Part shown: positions 14,633 to 34,947 of the stretch, piece by piece | Layout: the number at the start of each line of letters is the position of its first letter | How positions within the stretch are numbered: position 1 is the stretch's first letter | From: Bacteroidales bacterium | GTDB lineage: Bacteria; Bacteroidota; Bacteroidia; Bacteroidales; F082 | Length of the DNA stretch: 64,000 bases | Direction of reading: 5' to 3' | Assembly (NCBI GenBank): GCA_017477425.1 | Contig: JAFUVT010000014.1 | Coordinates: forward strand, 1-64,000 | Program-made: the position numbers and the translations under genes | The notes under the pieces: generated by a model | Told to the model about the DNA's origin: nothing | The model's input: only the letters and a program-made list of their open reading frames with translations | Database searches by the model: none

Positions 14633-14803
14633 TTAGGCTGTCAGCTCCACGATGGCACTTGCCTCGTTGCCGATGGCGAGTGCGATGACGAAGCCGTTCT
14701 CGATTTCGAAAAGGGTTGACGTCAAGGTGTCGCCCAGTTTGGCGGCCACGCGGTATTCCACACGAAGGCCCTTCACGACGATGCGGTAATGCGGAGGGTA
14801 GGA
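14633..14803 (-). pseudogene. C-terminal remnant, possibly of an acyl-ACP thioesterase
   Basis: A 56-codon open stretch without a start codon, closed upstream by an in-frame stop. It would read as RIVVKGLRVEYRVAAKLGDT, then a strand ending ASAIVELTA before TAA. The VEYR-x-x-AKLGDTL pattern looks like the last hot-dog strands of an acyl-ACP or acyl-CoA thioesterase. The coding bias resembles the neighbours, so this seems to be the tail of a deleted gene. The family guess is tentative. Confidence 0.4.
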
Positions 14804-29911: not shown

Positions 29912-30751
29912 ATGAACAAATCCGACAAAAAAATCATCCTCCTCACCGGTGCCAGCAGTGGCATTGGTTATGATGCCGCTTTGATGCTCGCCGAGCAGGG
30001 TCATAAGGTGTATGCCGCCGCTCGTAGAGTCGAGAAGATGGAGCCGCTACGTGAGAAAGGTGTCATCCCCATCAGAATGGACGTCACAGATGAAAGCTCG
30101 ATGGCCGAAGGCGTGAAAACGGTCCTTGACGCTGATGGGCGCATCGATGTCCTCATCAACAACGCCGGTTACGGTTATTTTGGAGCCATAGAAAACGTAC
30201 CCATGGAAGACGCGCGACGGCAAATCGAGGTCAACGTGTTTGGCCTGGCCCGTTTATGCCAAATGGTGCTTCCCATCATGCGCAACCAGGGCTCGGGACG
30301 CATCATCAACACTTCGTCGGTGGCAGGCAAAGCAGTGCTTTACTATGGCGGCTGGTATCACGTTTCCAAATACTCAGTCGAGGCTTTTAGCGATGCCCTC
30401 CGCATGGAGATGAAACCCTTCGGCATCGACGTGGTGATGATTGAGCCAGGAGGCATCAAGACGGAATGGGGGCATATTGCCGCCGACCATCTGGCGGCAT
30501 CGTCGAAGGATACACCTTACGAGGCCACAGCCCTCAACGAATCGAGAGCGTTCCATTGGATCTATGACTCAAAATTCCTCTCGAAGCCATCGGTGGTGGC
30601 GAAGGCCATCAGCAGGGCGGTAAACAGCCGTCACCCACTGGCTCGATATAGGATTGGCGCTTACTCAGGTGCCATCGTGTTCTTCCACTGGCTCTTGCCT
30701 ACCCGCTGGTGGGATGCGCTGATGCGCGTGTTGGGCAAGGTGAAAAAGTGA
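29912..30751 (+). CDS. SDR with C-terminal hydrophobic tail (ketoreductase)
   Basis: 279 residues. GASSGIG (13-19), NNAGYG near 91 and the YxxxK pair in WYHVSKYSVEAF near 149-153 mark a classical SDR. The last ~40 residues contain a hydrophobic stretch (GAYSGAIVFFHWLLP) that could touch the membrane. This resembles SDRs acting on lipids such as 3-ketosphinganine or retinol-type substrates. It converges on the acyl ligase/ACP/GNAT operon with a 24-base gap, which makes a 3-ketosphinganine reductase or ceramide-pathway role plausible. Without a biochemical marker this stays inference. Confidence 0.85.
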   Translation: MNKSDKKIILLTGASSGIGYDAALMLAEQGHKVYAAARRVEKMEPLREKGVIPIRMDVTDESSMAEGVKTVLDADGRIDVLINNAGYGYFGAIENVPMEDARRQIEVNVFGLARLCQMVLPIMRNQGSGRIINTSSVAGKAVLYYGGWYHVSKYSVEAFSDALRMEMKPFGIDVVMIEPGGIKTEWGHIAADHLAASSKDTPYEATALNESRAFHWIYDSKFLSKPSVVAKAISRAVNSRHPLARYRIGAYSGAIVFFHWLLPTRWWDALMRVLGKVKK

Positions 30752-30775
30752 TTGAACGAAAAGAGTGAAAATAAA

Positions 30776-31891
30776 TCAAATCTCTTTCTTATACGCTCTT
30801 CGGCGCATGAACGGGACGGTTTTGTACTCACCGAAAAGCGACTGAACCTTGTAGTTCTCTTCCAATTGCGGATTCATGATGATGGTGCCGATGCCGCGCC
30901 TGATGCAATTCTCATGCAGGTATTTGAACAGCAACACGGGTATTCCACATTGCTGATATTCAGGCATAACGCCCATAATCAAGGCCTCGAGGGTGTCGTT
31001 TTTCTTCAAAGCCTTAAGGATATTGACGAAACCGAAGGGGAACAAGCGTCCGTTGCTTTTCTTCACGGCCTTGGAGAGTGAGGGCACACAGAAAAGGAAG
31101 CCCACAGGCTTGTCTTGATCGTTGACGGCCACAGCCACAAAGTCCTTGTCCAAAATGGGCACGTAGGTCTTCAGGTAGGCCGCAATCTGCTTGTCGGTCA
31201 AAGGCGAGAAGCCGTGCAACGGGGCGAAGGCCTCGTTGTACATATGGAAAATCTCCATGCCATAGCGCTTGCCCATCTCCTTCATGCTCTTGGGTTGAAC
31301 GACGTGCACCTTAAAACGCTCTTCAATCAGATGGGTAAATTGGAACATCTGGGGCAGTTCCTTGCTCACCTCAAGCGTGCGCTGCGTCCAGTCGACATCT
31401 TTGACGAAGCCCATCTTTTCGAGCATGGTGCCATAATACGGAAAGTTGTAGAGACAGGTGAATGGGCTGAGATGCTCAAAACCTTCAACGAGCAAGCCCT
31501 CCTTGTCCATGTCGGTGAAGCCCCACGGGCCGTGCATCTCGGTACGTCCGCGCTGTTTGCCCCACGCCACCACGGTGTCGATCAGGGCATGAAGCACTTC
31601 CTCGTCCTCGATGAAGTCAAGCCAACCGAAGCGGACGATGTTCTTTGCATCGTCAGCCTTATGGTTGATGATGGCGGCCACACGTCCGACGATTTCCTCG
31701 CCACGATAGGCCAAGAAACAATCGGCTTCGCAAAACTCATAGGCACCATTTTTCTCGGGATTGAAGGTATCGTATTCGTCGCCTTCAAGGGCGGGCACCC
31801 AATTCTCGCAGTTCTTGTAGAGTTTGAGGGGAAAAGCCACAAACTGTTTCATCTGCTTGTGGCTTTCCACCTTCTTGATTGTAATGGACAT
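30776..31891 (-). CDS. GNAT-fold N-acyltransferase (YghO-like; candidate ceramide synthase)
   Basis: 371 residues. The N-terminal region (MKQFVAFPLKLYKNCENWVP, residues 14-33), the FLAYRGEEIVGRVAAIINH block and the GPWGFTDMDKEGLLVEGFEH stretch match the large GNAT/YghO-like family. Caulobacter bacterial ceramide synthase belongs to this general group, to my knowledge. The C-terminal GNAT domain has ALIMGVMPEYQQCGIPVLLF as its acyl-carrier loop. The gene lies 2 bases after an acyl carrier protein and follows an acyl ligase, so it probably transfers an acyl chain from ACP to an amine. Confidence 0.82.
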   Translation of the reverse strand: MSITIKKVESHKQMKQFVAFPLKLYKNCENWVPALEGDEYDTFNPEKNGAYEFCEADCFLAYRGEEIVGRVAAIINHKADDAKNIVRFGWLDFIEDEEVLHALIDTVVAWGKQRGRTEMHGPWGFTDMDKEGLLVEGFEHLSPFTCLYNFPYYGTMLEKMGFVKDVDWTQRTLEVSKELPQMFQFTHLIEERFKVHVVQPKSMKEMGKRYGMEIFHMYNEAFAPLHGFSPLTDKQIAAYLKTYVPILDKDFVAVAVNDQDKPVGFLFCVPSLSKAVKKSNGRLFPFGFVNILKALKKNDTLEALIMGVMPEYQQCGIPVLLFKYLHENCIRRGIGTIIMNPQLEENYKVQSLFGEYKTVPFMRRRAYKKEI

Positions 31892-31893
31892 AG

Positions 31894-32136
31894 TTATAGT
31901 GTTGTGTGTGTTTCGACGTAATCGAGCACCTCCCCTACTGTGGTGAACTTGGGCGTGCCTTCAAACTTGAATTGGAATTTGGTCTCGATGGCCAAACTCA
32001 AGAGCAAGATGGTCAGCGAGTCAAGGCCCAAGTCTCGAACCAGTTGTGATTCATCGGTGACCAAATCCAAGTCCATCGAGGGCTTGATTACCTTCAGGAT
32101 TTCTTTCAATCCGTCCAATATGGTTTCTCTTTGCAT
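31894..32136 (-). CDS. Acyl carrier protein
   Basis: 80 residues, a four-helix ACP. The phosphopantetheine site is Ser40 in LGLDSLT. The chain has a long first helix and an acidic-to-neutral helix 2 (SLTILLLSLAIETKF), typical of specialised ACPs rather than the housekeeping one. It sits between the acyl ligase (6-base gap) and the GNAT acyltransferase (2-base gap), so the three act together: the ligase loads the ACP and the acyltransferase unloads it. It needs a phosphopantetheinyl transferase that is not in this window. Confidence 0.93.
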   Translation of the reverse strand: MQRETILDGLKEILKVIKPSMDLDLVTDESQLVRDLGLDSLTILLLSLAIETKFQFKFEGTPKFTTVGEVLDYVETHTTL

Positions 32137-32142
32137 AGCGGC

Positions 32143-33630
32143 TTAATTTCTTGATACTTTCATGGCTCCAGTACGCTTGAAGTCCTCCTTGCGCACGGTG
32201 ATTTTGCTGACTTGATGGGTGGTGGGCAACGTGGCGTTGACTTTGCCGACCAAGTCCTTGAAATAGGCTTCCACCTCTTCCCACGGTGTGTCGCCGAAAT
32301 CGTCGATGCGCGGATAGATCTCGATGGCAATCACGCCGCGACCATCCACCTCTTCTTCCTTGACAAGGCAGTCGCGGAGCTTCGGGTCTTGGTAGAAAGG
32401 CTCCTCGATGCTTTCGGGGCTGACGTTTTCGCCATTGGCGAGAATGATAAGGTTCTTGATACGACCCACAATATACATGTAACCTTCTTCGTCGAAGCGC
32501 ACCAAGTCGCCAGTCTTCAGCCAGCCATCTTCGGTCATCACCTCAGCTGTCTTCTCAGGATCGCCGTAATAGCCGAGGAAGAGGTTGTCGCCCTTGATCC
32601 ACAGCTCGCCGTCGACTACCTTCAGCTCTTGCTCGGGATACACCTTACCGACCGACGTGGGTCTTTCCTTCACATCGACGTTACCCGTGGTCAGGTTGGC
32701 CGTCTCAGTCATGCCGTAGCCTTCAAAGAGGCTGATGCCCAACTCGTCAAACTCTTTGATGAGTTTAGGAGGCACGTTGGCAGCGCCCGAGATGATGAAC
32801 TTCAAGTTGCCCCCAAGGAAGGGCTTGCCGTACAACTTGACCAGACCCAAAAGGATCTCGCAAATGCCAGGAACAGCCACCAAGCATGTAGGCTTGATGA
32901 CGGGGAATTTGGTGATGGTTTCCTTGGTGTTGGATGCGGCATACCATGCACCACCTTCGTGAAGCACCGACAAGGTGCTGCGAATCAGGCCAAACACATG
33001 GCTGAGAGGCAACACGCAGGCATAACGATGGTGGCCAAGCTGTGAGCCAGGGGCATAAACGCCGTTCAACGCGCCGCGCATCAGGGCTCGATGCGGCAAG
33101 ACAGCGCCTTTGGGCGCACCCGTAGTGCCACCCGTGAAGAAGATGGCAGCGGCATCGTCCTTGTCGACCACGGCGACAGGAGCCTTCTGTTCGGCGCAAT
33201 CGGTGATGGCAACGGCCTTGCAGGGCACGCCAGCGACGGCTTCGGCAAAGTCCTTGCCATAGGCGATGACCTTCACGCCAAACTTCATGCAGCAACCCAC
33301 AATGGCTTGCGGTGGAAGCTGTGCCGGCAGGTTGATGGCTACATACCCCGCAGAAGTAACAGCCAGAAACATCTCAACGGCATCAACCGTAGTGTTGTCC
33401 AAGATGGCTACTTTGTCGCCTTTTTGCAGGCCAAACGAATTGAGCAAAGCGCGTTTGCGGGCAATGGTCTCGCAGACTTCTTTATAATTGTAAGTGTTCA
33501 CCGTGTCGGAAAGACAGGGCAAATCCGACCACTTCTGTTCAATCCAAGTCACAAACTCGGGAAGGGTCGGGATGTAGTGCAACTGCGCGAGTTCCTCGGC
33601 AGGAAGCATACTTTTGAAATAATCTTGCAT
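32143..33630 (-). CDS. AMP-forming acyl-CoA/acyl-ACP ligase
   Basis: 495 residues, ANL superfamily. FTGGTTGAPKGAVLPH (P-loop, near 168-183), EGYGMTE (near 317-323), GWLKTGDLVRFDEEGYMYIVG (adenylate-binding hinge) and the C-terminal catalytic Lys in TGAMKVSRN are all visible. It activates a fatty acid with ATP and most likely passes it to the ACP encoded directly downstream. ATG 33630 follows the -7 element at 33670; an in-frame ATG at 33699 precedes it. It is the first gene of the three-gene operon. Confidence 0.92.
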   Translation of the reverse strand: MQDYFKSMLPAEELAQLHYIPTLPEFVTWIEQKWSDLPCLSDTVNTYNYKEVCETIARKRALLNSFGLQKGDKVAILDNTTVDAVEMFLAVTSAGYVAINLPAQLPPQAIVGCCMKFGVKVIAYGKDFAEAVAGVPCKAVAITDCAEQKAPVAVVDKDDAAAIFFTGGTTGAPKGAVLPHRALMRGALNGVYAPGSQLGHHRYACVLPLSHVFGLIRSTLSVLHEGGAWYAASNTKETITKFPVIKPTCLVAVPGICEILLGLVKLYGKPFLGGNLKFIISGAANVPPKLIKEFDELGISLFEGYGMTETANLTTGNVDVKERPTSVGKVYPEQELKVVDGELWIKGDNLFLGYYGDPEKTAEVMTEDGWLKTGDLVRFDEEGYMYIVGRIKNLIILANGENVSPESIEEPFYQDPKLRDCLVKEEEVDGRGVIAIEIYPRIDDFGDTPWEEVEAYFKDLVGKVNATLPTTHQVSKITVRKEDFKRTGAMKVSRN

Positions 33631-33669: not shown

Positions 33670-33677
33670 CAAAGATA
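33670..33677 (-). promoter_or_regulatory. -7 promoter element of the acyl ligase/ACP/GNAT operon
   Basis: Reads TATCTTTG leftward, 39 bases before ATG 33630. It excludes the in-frame start at 33699. Confidence 0.65.
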
Positions 33678-33721
33678 GGGAAAATCGTTTTTCCTTCAAA
33701 ATAAAATGTCCAAGAAGTGTT

Positions 33722-34822
33722 TTATTTGGCCACGATTACCTTAGCGGTTCCGCTCTCTCTTTTGACGAAATAGACGCCTTCGGGCATTCCACTGAGATCG
33801 ATGCAGGCCGTACCGGACTGAACCTCTTGCCTGACGACCACACGTCCTTGTACGTCGATCACCTCGACAGTCGAAGTTTCCTCCACTTCCATGTTGAACA
33901 CTCCTTGGGTCGGATTGGGCCAAATGTTGAGGCGGCCTGTTGGGATTTCTGTGACGCCATCGTCGATGACTTTCCGAGTGAAGAATTCATGGATGAGGTT
34001 CATGTAGCTGGCGTCGTATTGGGCGTCGCTGTGGTACCATGTGTGGGTACCGCCCACGACCTTGATGTGCTCTAACTCGGTGCCGCAGTCGTATGTGTAG
34101 CGGATGAACCGCAGCCCATCATTGTGTGTGTCGGGCAACGTGTCTATTTCGGGTTCACCATCACAGCTGTTGGCATTTTGCCAGTATTCGAGTATGGCTT
34201 CAACGCTGAGTCCGAGCGTGCCGCCAAACACTTGCGAAGTGCCGTCGTAATTGACTACATTGTCGCTCGTGCCGTGGATGTGAAGCATCCTAACGGGAGA
34301 CACTGGGTTCAACTCGCTCATCGCGAAGGTGATAAGACCGCTGACGGGGGCGCAACCTGCGATGCGGTCGCCATGTTCAATGGCCATACGGTGGGTCATG
34401 AAGCCTCCCATTGAGAAGCCAGTGAAGAAAACGCTATCGAGGTTGATGTGGTAAGGTTCGGCCAATGAGTCAACCAAAGCCATCAGGAAGCCCGAATCAT
34501 CGATGTTGCTGCTCATCATGCCAGCATTCCACATCGTGAACCCCGACTGTGGCAAAGCTTGTGGCACCAGGATGACCCAACCGAAGTCCTCGGCAATCTG
34601 TTGGAAGTTGTACTCGCTGTCGACGCGTGTAATGTTGTCGCCCAATCCGTGCAAGAAAAACAATACTGGGACAGGCTTCTCCACCCCCTGAGGTGCCCTA
34701 ACGAGGTATTCTCGGTTAGTGCCTTGCCAAGGGAAAGTCTGGATTTGGGCAAACAAAGTGCCGCAGATAGAAAACAGTGCCATTATCGCACCGAACTTAA
34801 AGAGTCTGGTAGCTTTCATCAT
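33722..34822 (-). CDS. Secreted esterase (PHB-depolymerase/LpqC-like) with T9SS type A tail
   Basis: 366 residues. A signal peptide ending LFAQ. The esterase domain has FFLHGLGDN, the nucleophile elbow GFSMGGFMTH near 141-150, the acid in HIHGTSDNVVNY and the His in VGGTHTWYH, as in CE1-type feruloyl esterase/PHB depolymerase relatives. The last ~70 residues are a textbook type IX sorting domain: IWPNPTQGVFNMEV, VIDVQGRVV, then GMPEGVYFVK and TAKVIVAK. So it is exported through the outer membrane by T9SS. It likely attacks plant-derived ester links. Start: MM at 34822/34819, after the -7 at 34845. Confidence 0.9.
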   Translation of the reverse strand: MMKATRLFKFGAIMALFSICGTLFAQIQTFPWQGTNREYLVRAPQGVEKPVPVLFFLHGLGDNITRVDSEYNFQQIAEDFGWVILVPQALPQSGFTMWNAGMMSSNIDDSGFLMALVDSLAEPYHINLDSVFFTGFSMGGFMTHRMAIEHGDRIAGCAPVSGLITFAMSELNPVSPVRMLHIHGTSDNVVNYDGTSQVFGGTLGLSVEAILEYWQNANSCDGEPEIDTLPDTHNDGLRFIRYTYDCGTELEHIKVVGGTHTWYHSDAQYDASYMNLIHEFFTRKVIDDGVTEIPTGRLNIWPNPTQGVFNMEVEETSTVEVIDVQGRVVVRQEVQSGTACIDLSGMPEGVYFVKRESGTAKVIVAK

Positions 34823-34844
34823 AGTTGGTTTATAATTATCGTTG

Positions 34845-34852
34845 CAAAAATA
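34845..34852 (-). promoter_or_regulatory. -7 promoter element of the T9SS esterase
   Basis: Reads TATTTTTG leftward, 22 bases before ATG 34822. Confidence 0.6.
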
Positions 34853-34947
34853 AGGATTTTCAAATAATGTTTTTACAGAGTGGAATATTTGTACGACAAT
34901 TCGTAGCAATAATCAAGAAATCTTTTCCTTCATTGAGATATTTACCG

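Follow-up and report, generated by a model that had tools for sequence, protein, structure and literature searches.

A fatty acid ligase, carrier protein and YghO-like acyltransferase gene trio as a candidate sphingolipid N-acylation module in a Bacteroidales genome

Results

A gene trio and a converging reductase

The 64,000-nucleotide stretch of DNA analysed here (the window, from a Bacteroidales bacterium, contig JAFUVT010000014.1) carries four intact open reading frames between positions 29912 and 33630 (Table 1). On the minus strand, the gene for an AMP-forming fatty acid ligase comes first, followed after 6 bp by that of a small acyl carrier protein (ACP) and after 2 bp by that of a GNAT N-acyltransferase, whose stop codon lies 24 bp from the stop codon of a short-chain dehydrogenase/reductase (SDR) gene converging on it. 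The genes and the gaps of 6 and 2 bases are exactly those reported in an initial annotation, which proposed a ceramide synthesis operon of the Caulobacter kind. The three minus-strand genes, hereafter the trio, are read as one putative operon and, with a probability of about 0.6, as an N-acylation module for sphingolipids, a reading that draws on gene identities, motifs, fold, homology to YghO and bacterial ceramide synthase (bCerS), conserved linkage among the three genes, and the linkage to serine palmitoyltransferase (SPT) seen for the trio and for the GNAT family.

The ligase contains the motifs TGGTTG, GYGMTE and TGD as well as the lysine of a C-terminal RTGAMK, and the ACP has its attachment motif DSL at residue 39. 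Elsewhere in the genome, two PP-binding proteins score 58.8 and 51.7 bits, far above the ACP of the window, which therefore looks specialised. The pattern search that predicts a promoter 5' of the ligase gave 8 matches in the window, with 2.27 expected.

Table 1. Coordinates of the trio, its flanking features and the related ligase-ACP loci. Positions are those of the window unless a locus is named.
Feature	Position	Strand	Description
SDR oxidoreductase	29912-30751	+	279 aa; adh_short 161 bits (Pfam)
GNAT, YghO/bCerS-type tandem-GNAT N-acyltransferase	30776-31891	-	371 aa; Acetyltransf_1 22.2 bits (Pfam)
Specialised ACP, GLDSL phosphopantetheine site	31894-32136	-	80 aa; PP-binding PF00550 25.8 bits (Pfam)
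AMP-forming fatty acid ligase/acyl-ACP synthetase	32143-33630	-	495 aa from ATG; AMP-binding PF00501 195 bits (Pfam)
Bacteroidetes-type promoter match	33670-33699	-	TATCTTTG; 19-base spacer, upstream TTG; 5' of the ligase; predicted by pattern search
PlsC-like acyltransferase with ligase-ACP pair	L155 6945-9365, L156 6985-9363		Genomes G018 and G081

The acyltransferase is a full-length relative of YghO

Aligned over its full length (390 alignment columns), the GNAT protein is 29.7% identical to YghO of Escherichia coli BL21 (E 6.5e-46), and in E. coli B the yghO gene adjoins a fatty acyl-AMP ligase - epimerase - ACP - spt gene series. Its AF2 model (pLDDT 92.4, pTM 0.88) shows a tandem-GNAT fold. 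In a fold search the nearest structures were 7q3a (Z 22.7, rmsd 3.5, 304 aligned residues) and 5kf1 (Z 22.0, rmsd 3.6, 296 aligned residues), two tandem GNAT acetyltransferases that match over the whole chain, and N-myristoyltransferases reached Z about 14.7. No ceramide synthase structure is among the fold-search matches listed, and a PDB sequence search with the protein returned nothing at E<=1. The comparison of the predicted model settles the fold and points to no particular substrate.

In a quick tree, proteins from SPT-GNAT-CerR loci are among those that join the window GNAT in one group (SH-aLRT 94), and a second GNAT of the same genome, encoded on contig C31, lies outside it. A third, distant YghO-like clade of about 400 aa and about 25% identity was also seen (L055 7176-8399 in genome G101, L066 7911-9080 in G100); it is widespread in the order, including genomes without SPT.

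Sphingolipid and sulfonolipid genes on other contigs of the genome

SPT, which the initial annotation placed outside the window, was found at G000:C31:135189-136373, on another contig of the same genome (G000). Its closest solved structures are the annotated serine palmitoyltransferases 8guh and 3a2b (554 bits), and it lies in an operon of the order GNAT-SPT-SDR, in which the GNAT is 37% identical to that of the window and the SDR is the genome's best match to NF049977, the model of the 3-ketosphinganine reductase KdsR (332 bits, cut-off 400). An alpha-oxoamine synthase on contig C39 was considered as a further SPT and judged to be a 2-amino-3-ketobutyrate CoA ligase, the match being weaker and the neighbouring gene threonine-dehydrogenase-like.

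The genome also encodes SulA, the cysteate-C-fatty acyltransferase of sulfonolipid synthesis, on contig C2 (G000:C2:104541-106602; L049 6326-8606), with 572 bits to structure 7u7h and 538 to 28eh. The divergent SDR gene beside it likely encodes the 3-ketocapnine reductase. From the presence of both the SPT operon and SulA, the bacterium is predicted to make sphingolipids and sulfonolipids, probably both. Elsewhere, at G000:C12:92203-95603 (L050 6203-9603), an ACP - SDR - SDR - AMP-ligase - ACP cassette lies in an apparent surface polysaccharide locus.

Conservation of the trio and its linkage to SPT

Comparisons were made among 119 genomes of the order, 99 of the genus and 173 of the family, many of which are metagenome-assembled genomes (MAGs), so that gene absences are soft. 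Ligase, ACP and GNAT occur together, in at least four gene orders, at 15 of the 22 loci of this GNAT clade, which come from named, mostly rumen and hindgut, Bacteroidales MAGs; two of the seven remaining loci are cut by contig ends. The association exceeds chance, and the core of the trio is found in at least three different flanking contexts.

In five genomes of sister species (G234, G250, G243, G211 and G198; trio GNAT 87-89% and SPT 87-91% identical), a KdsR-like SDR gene converges on the trio at a distance of a few bases, and SPT comes after it. In G214 and G230 the SDR-SPT pair stands 0.9-2.9 kb from the trio, with an acyl-ACP thioesterase gene next to the pair, and G000, G182, G213 and G225 have the trio and the SPT operon at separate places. 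G243, G185 and G221 each seem to have SPT twice, once at a locus with the trio and once at a locus with the other GNAT. In G234, the trio ligase is split over two reading frames (L102 6117-7531), either as a pseudogene or through an assembly error.

Within the genus, the window-type GNAT was found in 40 genomes and SPT in 42, with 36 having both (Fisher p 2.5e-16). Of the 13 trio genomes found outside the genus, 11 also have SPT; across the order, SPT occurs in 37 of 119 genomes. A test of trio against SPT on phylogenetically independent pairs, bearing on the co-inheritance that the initial annotation proposed to look for, was not significant alone and was too small to decide.

Some observations weigh against a sphingolipid role. 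The SPT operon of the window's own genome already holds a GNAT, so that the trio is a second N-acyl module and not the sole candidate ceramide synthase; the window is not the genome's main ceramide locus. The co-occurrence in the genus rests on few independent events, with about six well-supported contrasts of which two or three point in the same direction. Moreover, the trio is present without SPT in the near-complete genomes G232 (100% complete) and G207 (96%), both of which have SulA. Finally, G176 keeps the trio and its flanking genes without the SPT and SDR between them.

The last two bear on the strongest rival, in which the trio would N-acylate capnine, a base coming from SulA on contig C2, and so complete sulfonolipids, or would acylate both capnine and sphinganine. 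The chemistry is parallel to that of the sulfonolipid pathway (SulA/CFAT, Alistipes finegoldii alfi_1224, and the 3-ketocapnine reductase), SulA with its divergent SDR is encoded in this genome, 164 of 173 genomes of the family have SulA, G176 and G299 join G232 and G207 in having trio and SulA without SPT, and the gene of the sulfonolipid N-acyltransferase is not named in PMC9304779 or PMC11211663. Against it, physical linkage between the trio and SulA was never seen whereas linkage to SPT was, four genomes (G243, 93% complete, G290, G291 and G303) have trio and SPT with no SulA match, and the trio is missing from the majority of those genomes of the genus that have SulA. A role confined to capnine, or shared with it, is rather unlikely overall, the dual role being possible.

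The ligase-ACP pair follows the acyltransferase

At E<=1e-60, the ligase was found in only four of the 119 order genomes, and the ACP adjoins it in all of them. Two genomes that lack both this GNAT and SPT (G018 and G081) have a ligase-ACP pair of the same family adjoining a PlsC-like acyltransferase, which suggests that the pair serves the adjoining acyltransferase. In the simplest reading of these gene neighbourhoods, the pair would load free fatty acid for whichever acyltransferase adjoins it.

The PlsC-linked pairs are also what would be expected of a general cassette for scavenging free fatty acids, in which ligase and ACP would be loading exogenous fatty acids and the substrate of the GNAT would be some other amine or lipid that has no relation to sphingoid bases. 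The GNAT family, found in 96 of the 119 order genomes, indeed occurs in 59 of the 82 that have no SPT; yet it is present in all 37 that do (Fisher p 9e-5), in 12 of these 37 a member and SPT are no more than about 350 bp apart, and the order SPT-GNAT-CerR-like, with the third gene resembling the E. coli epimerase-type reductase, recurs in G100, G150, G157, G074 and L272. This repeated direct linkage of the family to SPT and CerR-like genes, together with that of the trio to SPT, makes the scavenging cassette improbable.

One of these loci, in G150 (L166 4421-11758), reads DUF5686 outer membrane protein - SPT - GNAT - CerR-like - small protein - PAP2_3 (IPC-synthase-like), and resembles an almost complete inositol-phosphoceramide locus in the same family.

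The pair could also act one step earlier, as in Caulobacter, with ligase and ACP giving acyl-ACP to SPT and the GNAT taking another donor. The SPT of Rhodobacteria needs AasR and AcpR to form 3-oxo-sphinganine (PMC9386255), and sister species have the trio and SPT side by side, converging. However, the pair stays with the GNAT in genomes without SPT and is mostly absent where SPT has the other GNAT; orthology with E. coli AasR and AcpR is not clear, with two local matches of 34% and 29% for the ligase and no match below E 10 for the short ACP; and Bacteroidetes SPTs use acyl-CoA according to PMC11324152. We consider supply to SPT very improbable. The Caulobacter-like gene set of the initial annotation holds as regards the ligase and the specialised ACP; SPT is elsewhere in this genome, the cluster has no CerR-type reductase and the pair tracks the GNAT.

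Flanking genes

The converging SDR, which had been counted as part of the system, does not belong to the conserved unit. Its best curated model is the generic oxidoreductase NCBIfam PRK06182 (392 bits, above the cut-off of that model), it reaches 213 bits against the cut-off of 400 of KdsR model NF049977, and it is 36% identical to the SDR of the C31 operon. It is a classical SDR with no match to the E. coli epimerase-type (CerR-type) reductase. No orthologue was found beside any other trio, including that of G182, whose GNAT is 93% identical to that of the window and where the esterase gene flanking the trio at its other end is kept. From its sequence and neighbourhood, the SDR at 29912-30751 is most likely a chance neighbour and was rejected as a member of the system. 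That type IX secretion system (T9SS) esterase, at 33722-34909, is kept beside the trio only in G182 and was not counted as a member.

An isolated remnant of 48 residues on the minus strand of the window (14639-14782) is 83% identical to the C-terminal end of an acyl-ACP thioesterase that sits in the trio/SPT cluster of G214, G230 and G176. No full-length thioesterase gene was seen here, so the remnant seems to be what is left of a cluster that was rearranged. In G176 (L153 3597-10589), about 15 bp separate the glycosyltransferase and thioesterase genes that in sister genomes flank SPT and the KdsR-like SDR; both are cleanly missing and the trio is kept.

Discussion

In this study we focus on a ligase-ACP-GNAT trio whose acyltransferase resembles bacterial ceramide synthases. 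The proposal that it is a ceramide N-acylation module gains from comparison, through the homology to YghO and the linkage to SPT in relatives, with the sulfonolipid role as its rival. In the reaction that we infer, including the acyl donor (acyl-ACP and not acyl-CoA), the base and the free-fatty-acid origin of the chain, the ligase would adenylate a free long-chain fatty acid and load it onto the phosphopantetheine arm of the dedicated ACP, and the GNAT would move the acyl chain from the ACP to the amine of a long-chain base. This base would be sphinganine or 3-ketosphinganine from the SPT and SDR of contig C31, and the product a (keto)dihydroceramide. The trio is probably a second, differently supplied N-acyl route with its own fatty-acid-activating pair.

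Ceramide synthases of this type are already described. bCerS is known in Caulobacter, with a homologue in Bacteroides fragilis (BF9343_4218), and CerS relatives are listed in Prevotella copri (PMC10865984); in sphingolipid-producing Bacteroidota the three genes are noted to have been located apart (PMC11334938). The window GNAT resembles bCerS (Caulobacter CCNA_01212/CC_1154, B. fragilis BF9343_4218 by homology, E. coli YghO) in its length within a range of about 370-380 aa, in being YghO-like throughout and in the linkage of its family to SPT and CerR. Unlike these, it is a paralogue that the genome has in addition to the GNAT of the SPT operon, and a ligase and an ACP of its own accompany it in place of SPT; its identity to YghO is about 30%. 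Since relatives of ceramide synthase in Bacteroides were already published by homology, what is new here is the variant with a private ligase-ACP pair. The literature search, from which subscription papers were mostly absent, turned up no such pair tied to an N-acyltransferase in Bacteroidales.

The closest parallel for the pair is the AasR-AcpR system of Rhodobacteria (PMC9386255), in which an AMP-forming ligase and a specialised ACP are also encoded together in a sphingolipid context. However, the window ligase is of another type (495 aa, against 562 aa for the E. coli fatty acyl-AMP ligase), the ACP has no detectable similarity, and the pair is linked to an N-acyltransferase instead of SPT. 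Modules for salvage by an acyl-ACP synthetase and PlsC share the same-family pair beside an acyltransferase, as in G018 and G081, but the acyltransferase of the window is a GNAT and not PlsC. As for the reductase, the best candidate counterpart of KdsR BT_0972 of Bacteroides thetaiotaomicron (PMC9278070) is the SDR beside SPT on contig C31, whereas the window SDR is a different one.

Sphingolipids of gut Bacteroidetes influence host immunity and metabolism, and N-acylation is genetically among the least settled steps of their synthesis. For these species, the trio offers a concrete candidate for N-acylation in the synthesis of both sphingolipids and sulfonolipids. If the reading is true, environmental fatty acids would enter bacterial ceramides directly, via a ceramide-synthase-like enzyme with its own activating pair, and the private-ACP arrangement of Bacteroidales would resemble that of Proteobacteria, but on the second acylation instead of the first. 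More tentatively, and we regard this as a conjecture that may well fail, some rumen and hindgut Bacteroidales could run two parallel routes of ceramide N-acylation, a basic one through the GNAT of the SPT operon and a ligase-ACP-GNAT salvage route that charges a private carrier with free fatty acids from the diet or the host. Whichever route is running would then determine the N-acyl chain in the sphingolipids of these bacteria, and perhaps in their sulfonolipids.

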